A DNA stretch of 35,465 bases from Oscillospiraceae bacterium (lineage in GTDB: Bacteria; Bacillota; Clostridia; Oscillospirales; Acutalibacteraceae), in NCBI GenBank assembly GCA_015066515.1, contig SVOH01000020.1, positions 1-35,465 of the forward strand, in the 5' to 3' direction. Shown piece after piece: positions 17,866-19,718 of this stretch (its first letter is position 1; each line of letters starts with the position of its first letter). The position numbers were made by a program, and so were the translations under genes. The notes under the pieces were generated by a model, which was not told the origin of the DNA, searched no databases, and was given only the letters and a program-made list of their open reading frames with translations.

Positions 17866-17910
17866 AAACACCAAAATACTCCAAATTAAAGGGGTATTTG
17901 GTGTTTTTTT
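17866..17910. terminator. Bidirectional terminator between ruvX and the retron RT gene
   Basis: AACACCAAAATACTCC on the left pairs with GGGGTATTTGGTGTT on the right, with one bulged A. Seven T follow on the plus strand and TTTTTAATTTTTG on the minus strand. It overlaps the end of the reverse transcriptase gene and closes both converging units. Confidence 0.9.
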
Positions 17911-18979
17911 ATATTTGTGCCAATATTTTACCTGTTCTTAATTCACGTATAGCCTCGCAAAAATAATTGTTATTAGGTTCTATTTGTAAAACATAGCTTA
18001 CCCTTCCTAAAAGATTGTGGTAATATGCGGCTGTATCGGGTGCGTTGTTTTTGACAAAATCGGTTTTGTCCCCGTGCATAATGCTTTCTGCAAGTCCAAA
18101 TTTAAGAGCAAAATATACTTCTTGTCTCAATGCACGTTTATAGTCTTTAGAAACCGAAACCTTTCGATTTACGGTAAGACCTGTAACACTTTGTCTTGAG
18201 TTGGAGGTTATAAAATGAGTCTTTTTATCATTCAGTTCAAAACCCATATCCTCAAGCACTTTCTTTACTTTAACATACATATTATATAGCGGTTTATTAG
18301 ATGAAAATGTCATATCGTCACAGTACCGCGTATATGAAATACCGCGCCCTTTACACCAATCACCTATATAATCATCAAACCGCTTCATAACAATATTCGA
18401 AAGTGCGGGCGATGTTGGTGCCCCTTGCGGTAAAACATCTTTACGGCAGCAAAGCGATGTCAGCATATAGCCAATCTGCTTTGGAAAAAGAGTGGTATTA
18501 AAGGCACTGTTATAAATTTTATCAAAATGAATGCTTCCAAAAAAATCTGAAATATCCATCTTTAAAACATATTTTTTATTTGTATGCAATTTTGCATTAT
18601 CCGATAAAGTTTTTCCTTTTATATATGCCGTAGCGTACTTTGATACAGGCATATTATTTAAAAACTTTTTAAGTACATTGTGTTGAATTGCCTTGAGCCT
18701 ACTATTAGGAGAACATAGCTGTCGTGTGCCACCGTTTCTTTTAGGCACGAAACAAACTTTATACATATCATCAACGTGTTTTACAATAGGCCATAAACAT
18801 TTAGGATTTTCGCCAAGATAAACACTAAGCTGCCAAACGTCGTATACAAAAGGAATATTGTGTGTTGACGAAAAATCAAGCACCATATTAGCCGCTTCAA
18901 TAAGGCCAAATTTTTTTACAAAATTTTTATCGCATGCGTCAAATCGCACGGTGCCGTCCTTTATATACAACGTTTTCAC
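17909..18979 (-). CDS. Retron-type reverse transcriptase
   Basis: Predicted to reverse-transcribe the msr-msd RNA encoded just upstream into msDNA. RT motifs in order: a fingers segment with PKRNGGTRQL near 79-88; the retron hallmark NAKLH (NAxxH) at 128-132; motif A MDISDFF with D142; PQGAPTSPALSN at 184-195; the active-site box YCDD at 219-222, with Cys where Ala is common; and the second retron hallmark VTG at 265-267, followed by a basic thumb. At 356 residues it is retron-sized, with no fused effector and no intron maturase or endonuclease domain. The longest frame starts at a GTG (18979) fused to an AGAG site. A TTG at 18970 sits eight bases from AAAGAGG and may be the true start. No known effector gene is adjacent. 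Confidence 0.93.
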   Translation of the reverse strand: MKTLYIKDGTVRFDACDKNFVKKFGLIEAANMVLDFSSTHNIPFVYDVWQLSVYLGENPKCLWPIVKHVDDMYKVCFVPKRNGGTRQLCSPNSRLKAIQHNVLKKFLNNMPVSKYATAYIKGKTLSDNAKLHTNKKYVLKMDISDFFGSIHFDKIYNSAFNTTLFPKQIGYMLTSLCCRKDVLPQGAPTSPALSNIVMKRFDDYIGDWCKGRGISYTRYCDDMTFSSNKPLYNMYVKVKKVLEDMGFELNDKKTHFITSNSRQSVTGLTVNRKVSVSKDYKRALRQEVYFALKFGLAESIMHGDKTDFVKNNAPDTAAYYHNLLGRVSYVLQIEPNNNYFCEAIRELRTGKILAQI

Positions 18980-18996
18980 CTCTTTTTAAAGATAAT

Positions 18997-19012
18997 ATTA
19001 CCCCTTGCAGTA
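18997..19012 (-). repeat. Retron a2 arm
   Basis: Sixteen bases, TACTGCAAGGGGTAAT on the minus strand, exactly complementary to a1. It ends 18 bases before the GTG of the reverse transcriptase gene, the usual position for a2. Confidence 0.88.
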
Positions 19013-19019
19013 CAAAATT

Positions 19020-19089
19020 CCTGATAAGTAAGCGGCGGCGAATGGTTTTGTCACGCAGTGACATTAAATTCGACAAAGCGTTTATCAGG
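19020..19089 (-). other. msd hairpin (template of the msDNA)
   Basis: CCTGATAA (19089-19082) pairs with TTATCAGG (19027-19020). Inside, CGAAT pairs with ATTCG (19072-19068 with 19043-19039), and TGTCAC pairs with GTGACA around a TGC loop (19063-19058 with 19054-19049). The expected msDNA would therefore be a mostly hairpin single strand of about 75-100 bases, depending on whether the 9-bp hairpin at 19093-19113 is copied. Confidence 0.7.
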
Positions 19090-19181
19090 TGGCTGCAAGA
19101 CGTAGTCTTGCAGTTATCCCTTTTTAAAAAATCCAGACGGCGACTCGCCGCCCCGCTTAAATTTGCATTTAAGATGTACGC

Positions 19182-19197
19182 TACTGCAAGGGGTAAT
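19182..19197 (-). repeat. Retron a1 arm
   Basis: Sixteen bases, ATTACCCCTTGCAGTA on the minus strand, exactly complementary to a2 at 18997-19012. The pair would hold the two ends of the retron RNA together. The first base after a1 is the candidate branching G. Confidence 0.88.
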
Positions 19198-19211
19198 TGG
19201 TTTGTATAAAA

Positions 19212-19240
19212 TTTATACCATAACTTAATATAAAAATCAA
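19212..19240 (-). promoter_or_regulatory. Promoter of the retron
   Basis: TTGATT (19240-19235) and TATAAA (19217-19212) are spaced by exactly 17 bases on the minus strand. The start of transcription would fall near 19205, eight bases before a1. The promoter lies just after the stop of the upstream GNAT gene (19254), so the retron can be transcribed on its own. Confidence 0.8.
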
Positions 19241-19253
19241 CTATTTTACGGTG

Positions 19254-19718
19254 CTATATAATTGTTTCCATACCTATTTTTTGTGGTTTTAAACCAAGTG
19301 ACTCATAAAAACGCATAGCCGATTGATTGCAGCTCCACACATTTAAGGTAAGGTTATAGCAACCGTTTTCTTTGGCGAGCTTCAATGCCGCGTCATACAG
19401 CTGTCGGCCTATATGCTTGCCGCGTAATTTTTCATCAACACATAAATCGTCAATATACAGAGTTTTAATATCTGTTAAAACCGAATTATTTACATGTTGC
19501 TCAAAAACGCAAAAGCAATATCCCATAACGCTGTCGTTCTCATCAACCGCTACTAGTATTGGACGCTCTTTGTCAGCTAGTAGCACCTTTAGCTCATCGG
19601 ACGAATATTTAGTACCTATTTTAAAAATGTCTGGTCTGCCGTTATGATGCACTAAATCAACTTGAGAGAGCAAATCCATAATCTTTGGAATATCTTTTTC
19701 TGTTGCAAATCTTATCAT
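19254..19718 (-). CDS. GNAT family N-acetyltransferase
   Basis: Predicted acetyl-CoA-dependent acetyltransferase of 154 residues. The central strand IKTLYIDDLCVDEKLRG leads into the acetyl-CoA loop RGKHIGRQLYDAA, and the end WSCNQSAMRFYESLGLKPQ is the usual GNAT C-terminus. The ATG has an AGGAG site located in the 10-base gap after the GH20-like gene, so the two genes are probably co-transcribed. It lies directly upstream of the retron promoter on the same strand, but nothing in its sequence links it to the retron. The substrate is unknown. Confidence 0.88.
   Translation of the reverse strand: MIRFATEKDIPKIMDLLSQVDLVHHNGRPDIFKIGTKYSSDELKVLLADKERPILVAVDENDSVMGYCFCVFEQHVNNSVLTDIKTLYIDDLCVDEKLRGKHIGRQLYDAALKLAKENGCYNLTLNVWSCNQSAMRFYESLGLKPQKIGMETII

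Follow-up and report, generated by a model that had tools for sequence, protein, structure and literature searches.

Does the minus strand between ruvX and a GNAT acetyltransferase gene in contig SVOH01000020.1 encode a complete retron and, if so, on what does its DNA product act? Defence retrons are understood as a sensor combined with an effector. The window (the whole 35,465-nt stretch of DNA that was analysed) had been proposed, in the original prediction, to contain a complete, apparently undescribed retron with an implied role in phage defence. We consider it very probable that the locus is a complete and intact two-part retron, made up of a noncoding RNA (ncRNA) and a reverse transcriptase (RT), that resembles Ec107 and whose msDNA acts alone or on an unlinked host factor. 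Judged by its sequence, the locus is a genuine retron and a further member of the Ec107-like kind, with no new mechanism. Its features are as follows.

17874..17899, plus strand: hairpin resembling a terminator, where the convergent ruvX and RT genes meet
17909..18970, minus strand: retron RT with a likely TTG start, from motifs, profiles, predicted fold and start comparison (GTG 18979 in the ORF tool)
18997..19012, minus strand: a2 arm, TACTGCAAGGGGTAAT, complementary to a1
19013..19125, minus strand: probable msd (the part expected to be reverse transcribed), about 113 nt, from the E. coli calibration and the wobble pattern
19020..19089, minus strand: main msd hairpin, 70 nt, from the fold
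19063-19049, minus strand: tip of the msd hairpin with a TGC loop (GCA in the DNA copy), from the fold
19093..19113, minus strand: hairpin 3 with a TAC loop (GTA in the DNA copy), probably part of the msd, from the fold and its depletion in G-U like the msd stems
19135..19153, minus strand: msr hairpin 2 with a GGCGAGTCGCC core common to the E. coli locus, from the fold
19156..19173, minus strand: msr hairpin 1, variable in sequence, from the RNA fold
19181, minus strand: predicted branch guanosine providing the priming 2'-OH, from its invariance and the AGC rule
19182..19197, minus strand: a1 arm, ATTACCCCTTGCAGTA, with covariation in its core pairs
19212..19240, minus strand: promoter-like site, TTGATT (19240-19235), 17 nt, TATAAA (19217-19212), its position kept in many relatives
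19254..19718, minus strand: GNAT acetyltransferase, the upstream neighbour, 56 nt from a1

The reverse transcriptase, its relatives and the promoter

The RT reading frame of the window is intact, and its translation contains the predicted NAKLH (NAxxH), YCDD and VTG motifs. The start is likely to be TTG 18970, since AGAGGTG, which is likely a ribosome site, overlaps GTG 18979 and the relatives begin at the equivalent of 18970. Among the PADLOC profiles, RT_Ec107-like scored best (394 bits), followed by RT_III-A (322 bits); RT_Ec107-like was also the best profile for all ten other RTs scanned, the E. coli RT included. The NCBIfam model retron_St85_RT (NF038233) was passed as well, at 245.8 against a cut-off of 235. 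The AlphaFold model of the window RT has a pLDDT of 92.8, and comparison of the predicted structure with the PDB returned retron RTs at all of ranks 1-18 and a group II protein at rank 19. Residues 1-45 are conserved in the close set of relatives defined below, lie largely outside the Ec107 profile and are partly covered by the III-A profile; they are predicted, mostly with confidence, to fold into a strand pair and two helices.

An RT match at an E-value of 0.001 or better was found in 37 of 394 genomes of the order, with the genome of the window counted. From a scan of one genome per species, the best 80 of 173 relatives were kept, among which 42 loci (L036-L077) form the close set. The hosts of this set are mostly metagenome-assembled Clostridia, many of them from animal guts. 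An RNA flanked by a1 and a2 was located upstream of the RT in 41 of the 42 close loci, with five of these RNA boundaries shifted by hand. L055 is exceptional in that its ncRNA lies 2.5 kb from the RT; in this region (L055:3293-6000) the two are separated by co-directional genes for an AAA ATPase and a DUF2201 metallopeptidase/VWA protein, possibly a captured partner in this one member. A second ncRNA was observed downstream of the RT in L060 (L060:7182-7334), besides the upstream one. Shortened msd variants were seen in L051, L054, L056, L060, L073, L075 and L076, in which the distance from hairpin 2 to a2 is 60-72 nt, as against 114-142 nt in the other close loci. The RT search of viral contigs yielded five distant RTs only.

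The predicted promoter was retained as a promoter-like site. It matches 9 of 12 consensus bases, and a match of at least 9/12 just before a1 recurred in 25 of 41 loci (the window and 40 of its 42 close relatives), compared with 16% of shuffles, the other 16 loci being without one. A generic promoter scan of the window found six sites against 5.4 expected by chance, and the site at 19240-19212 was not among them because the scan rule demands that the -10 element end in T. The support for this putative promoter is positional. An operator-like repeat before the promoter, GTGTCC(N2)TTTTTGGKACAC, was rejected as a general feature, since just 3 of 153 loci matched and two of these are near copies. 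Where it occurs, this inverted repeat lies near the retron promoter and may be an operator (L066:5699-5718, L068:5700-5719 and L072:5732-5751).

The RNA and the part that may work as DNA

The architecture of the RNA was largely as predicted. The a1/a2 inverted repeat is perfect over 16 bp (19197-19182 against 19012-18997, 16/16 pairs), AGC lies directly at the end of a1 (A19182-G19181-C19180), and the msd hairpin closed by CCTGATAA/TTATCAGG spans exactly 70 nt (19089-19020). The folding energy of the window RNA is -77.1, compared with a mean of -49.6 for shuffled sequences (z -6.59; 0/200 shuffles as low). An Rfam search of the window gave no match at the gathering score, with two chance-level matches at E-values up to 5. 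An ncRNA search of the window's own genome found one strong copy, together with a match to the complementary strand at that position (E 0.011) and a further match at E 0.17.

Covariation was assessed in an alignment of 33 RNAs, i.e., the window and 32 of the 41 close RNAs, after leaving out L048 (a duplicate), seven with a very short msd and the divergent L077. Changes on both sides, a check proposed in the original prediction, were found in 25 of 34 predicted pairs and in 13 of the 14 a1/a2 pairs; these counts, like the wobble and triloop counts below, come from related, non-independent sequences, with kinship ignored. For the named structure, 96.6% of cells are paired, compared with 36-47% for slid versions. 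None of 500 shuffles reached any of the five measures, and none of the six slid versions reached the observed values. Four bases flanking the predicted priming junction (A19182, G19181, G19013 and T19012) are invariant in 33/33 RNAs, consistent with the proposed priming from G19181 and a start near 19013. The third base of the AGC varies among the relatives, and is C in the window. The AGC rule for the priming guanosine is as given in PMC6868368.

Which part of this RNA would work as DNA? The pairing patterns offer a possible answer. An RNA stem tolerates G-U pairs; the DNA copy of a G-U pair is an A-C mismatch, and an RNA-sense A-C becomes a G-T wobble in DNA. By a symmetric score in the close family, the counts of G-U, A-C and Watson-Crick pairs were 64, 7 and 862 in a1/a2 and hairpins 1 and 2 together, 2, 15 and 629 in the msd stems, and 1, 3 and 288 in hairpin 3. 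An alignment-free count in 34 loci of the close set gave 17 G-U and 39 A-C in the msd, compared with 213 and 199 in shuffles; for a1/a2 and the msr the values were 76 and 14, with 81 and 33 in shuffled msr, showing that the G-U excess of the msr is partly due to composition. In the wider set (29 loci), the same count revealed no asymmetry in the msd (49 and 47; shuffles 180 and 173). Three hairpins had been predicted as msr-type, and all three are present; the third, however, has few G-U pairs, like the msd stems, and therefore probably belongs to the msd and is copied into DNA, which would bring the msDNA to near 113 nt.

Hairpin loops of the type d(C-GNA-G) are unusually stable in DNA, and a TNC loop in the RNA is copied into DNA as GNA. 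Among msd stems of at least six pairs with three-base loops, TNC triloops accounted for 34 of 47 in the close set (window and 40 of its 42 relatives), occurring in 29 of the 34 loci that have such hairpins, and for 22 of 36 in the wider set, occurring in 20 of 25 loci (29 of 39 loci usable, E. coli included). TNC was found in 76 of 1344 triloops in flanking DNA, counted on both strands, and in 1 of 11 triloops from ten other retron-type RTs, each examined over 320 nt of upstream DNA, eight of these loci having any. In a literature search, the word "triloop" was absent from the papers listed. Selection seems to act on the DNA copy of the msd, because its hairpins in the close family contain little RNA-type wobble and many have GNA ends.

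The length of the msDNA can be estimated from E. coli. The pyrE-slmA locus of this species, which we take to be Ec107 (Eco5) from the profile name and the site, has 117 nt between hairpin 2 and a2, compared with 123 nt in the window. By the naming rule, Ec107 carries 107 nt of DNA (PMC6868368). Applied to the window, this calibration gives a predicted msDNA of about 113 nt, with the msd region starting at G19013 and ending about 10 nt before hairpin 2. Together with the G-U pattern of hairpin 3, it fits better than the 75-100 bases originally proposed. In the suggested mechanism, the RT would bind the msr, prime from the 2'-OH of G19181 and copy the template from about G19013 through the main msd hairpin and hairpin 3, stopping about 10 nt short of hairpin 2 to give an msDNA of this length. 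Host RNase H would remove the template from the msDNA, and the msDNA-RT particle would either work alone or act on a host factor whose gene lies at another place.

Neighbours, spread and the effector question

Besides the retron, the ruvX-GNAT interval of the window holds, among ORFs of at least 60 aa, only opposite-strand ones that lie within the retron, with no effector candidate. In three close relatives, the DNA after ruvX is other sequence, and G018, which has no retron there, carries a GNAT homologue (77% DNA identity) beyond ruvX, separated from it by a further gene. Simple ORF calls in the window and its 42 relatives gave an upstream ORF in 40 of the 43 loci (27 on the same strand, 13 opposite); downstream ORFs were called in 41 (22 on the same strand, 19 opposite), and their products look unrelated between loci, save for near copies and a few chromosomal contexts such as L040/L062. 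Clustering of the ORFs for a shared partner returned, among the clusters listed, either generic families, with ABC ATPases and response regulators as examples, or groups that reflect synteny of the chromosome. PADLOC searches of 5 of the 22 same-strand downstream neighbours, the two L055 genes and the two neighbours of the window gave weak matches only, the best at E 0.0011. All three E. coli pyrE-slmA loci inspected show only core genes around the retron, which is alone between pyrE and slmA. A link to phosphoribosyltransferases via pyrE was considered and dropped, the retrons of Leminorella and Pragia adjoining other genes. When the locus was assessed as a tripartite system, no effector gene was found in the window interval nor, among the clusters listed, in the relatives. 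Because no effector was found at the locus, the implied role in phage defence is unsupported. A literature search on effector-less retrons returned nothing relevant, most subscription papers being outside its reach.

The RTs of the relatives are, by their substitution pattern, under purifying selection, with dN/dS of 0.047-0.242 in 15 of 17 pairs. The exceptions are one pair at 0.464, with a dS of only 0.021, and one at 0.429, which involves the broken frame of L062. The window RT shares 52% identity with the RT of G023 (same genus) and 56% with the RT of G125 (another family), whereas the RuvX of G023 is 68% identical to that of the window; this pattern fits horizontal transfer of the retron. 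In L102 and L107, the retrons are 74% identical and some of the flanking host DNA about 90%, reflecting either retron exchange or fast divergence at one site. The retrons of L058 and L059 are 96% identical, and the match between their left flanks breaks off precisely at the first a1 base. Retrotransposition, as suggested by a homology edge at a1, was nevertheless dropped, because L058/L059 alone are close enough to be informative and the rest show simple loss of conservation.

What other explanations could account for the locus? Assignment to another RT class (group II intron, DGR or DRT) would draw on weak shared RT motifs and has a negligible probability: the group II profile TIGR04416 reached 73 bits against a cut-off of 300, no DGR family appeared among the seven NCBIfam matches of the window RT, the Drt2, Drt3a and Drt4 profiles were far below cut-off, the leading PDB fold ranks are retrons, and the ncRNA is of retron type. 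Of the two clades against which the original prediction asked that the RT be checked, group II is disfavoured by both profile and fold rank, and DGR by profile only. An ordinary tripartite defence retron with its effector next door is very improbable. The most plausible candidate would be the upstream GNAT, at the position where some retrons carry a phosphoribosyltransferase gene; it is co-directional and close to a1, and two plasmid RT loci, presumably of type III-A, have an annotated phosphoribosyltransferase gene and a small gene upstream of the RT. However, the GNAT homologue of G018 stands without a retron, the upstream ORFs are of mixed strand, the neighbours among the clusters listed are generic or syntenic only, and, among the PADLOC families, the window GNAT matched none at 0.001 and a single one at E 0.0057.

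That the locus is a functionless remnant, selfish or decaying, is improbable, if slightly less so. Its presence among genomes is patchy, the RT frames of L062, L105 and L017 are broken and the match in G406 is split, but in the window both frame and RNA are intact, the relatives show the selection described above, and the same gene, which we take to be dapA-like, adjoins the retron in six wider loci. A tripartite retron whose effector is encoded elsewhere in the genome is a more serious alternative, though unlikely. According to one source, retrons typically consist of an RT, an ncRNA and a toxic effector, and Retron-Bth1 has no obvious effector (PMC12548924). Against an unlinked effector stands the same lack of a partner in the close set and in all three E. 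coli loci. With no effector found at the locus, the msDNA-RT particle most likely acts alone or targets a host factor with its gene elsewhere. Our best guess for the two-part retron is an msDNA that works in trans or independently of an effector.

A broader idea, which we put forward tentatively and with some doubt, is that Ec107-like retrons constitute a large branch without effectors, whose function is carried out by the msDNA itself. This msDNA would be a short, GNA-capped single-stranded DNA, probably nuclease-resistant and selected as DNA; it would target a host DNA-binding protein or nuclease directly and guard no toxin. The interest of the family lies in this effector-free branch and in its DNA-level signature. 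As an effector-free form in many gut Clostridia, it supplies an RNA model backed by covariation, together with predictions of the priming base and of the msDNA length. Few G-U pairs combined with GNA loops in the DNA copy may mark the part of a retron RNA that works as DNA and, if the signature survives phylogenetic correction, could help to place msd boundaries in retrons without msDNA data.

Which known retrons does the locus resemble?

That the locus is a retron is supported by the profile and the predicted fold of its RT, by covariation within its ncRNA and by the homology of this RNA to the one at the E. coli locus. It is not undescribed as a kind, because PADLOC already holds an RT_Ec107-like model that fits it. 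R1, a covariance model built from the 33 Clostridia RNAs, links the family to the E. coli ncRNA: the E. coli locus L151 was found full-length (36.5 bits, E 8e-8), as was L109 (E 8e-8), these E-values being rough. R1 matched 35 of 38 wider loci at E-values up to 1, several of these matches being partial or weak, and found no match in L079, L101 and L106 of the wider loci or in L024, L026 and L116-L120. In an RT tree, the window falls in a 40-row group (SH-aLRT 90), outside the group of 48 rows (98) to which the E. coli RT belongs; the tree was made by a quick method with no bootstrap and does not fix how the two groups join. L070, L077 and L089 lie in neither group.

Compared with St85 (NF038233), the window RT scores above the family cut-off, but this family is broad, and two of its plasmid members are adjoined by ptuA effectors. 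Type III-A (phosphoribosyltransferase and winged helix) provides the second-best RT profiles, and a long N-terminus is common to both, since the alignment pairs window residue 39 with position 36 of the profile; the window, in contrast, has neither a phosphoribosyltransferase nor a DNA-binding/winged-helix partner between ruvX and GNAT.

The closest likeness is to Ec107 (Eco5). The E. coli retron was detected in 373 of 5426 genomes, as a single copy in each, and the three loci inspected place it between pyrE and slmA. As described in two sources, Ec107 has a YCDD motif, occupies an intergenic region in place of a 34-bp palindrome and is expressed more highly under phosphate starvation and in stationary phase (PMC6868368), and the length of Eco5 DNA changes without RNase H1 (PMC8989520). 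The window differs from Ec107 in about 36 N-terminal residues of its RT beyond the Ec107 profile, in its separate group on the quick RT tree, and in its a1/a2 and msd sequences, host phylum and site, which are all other. It shares with Ec107 the best RT profile, the YCDD motif, the same RNA layout with the GGCGAGTCGCC hairpin, an ncRNA found by the Clostridia model, a TNC triloop hairpin in the msd (TTC in E. coli) and the absence of a partner gene from the loci inspected.
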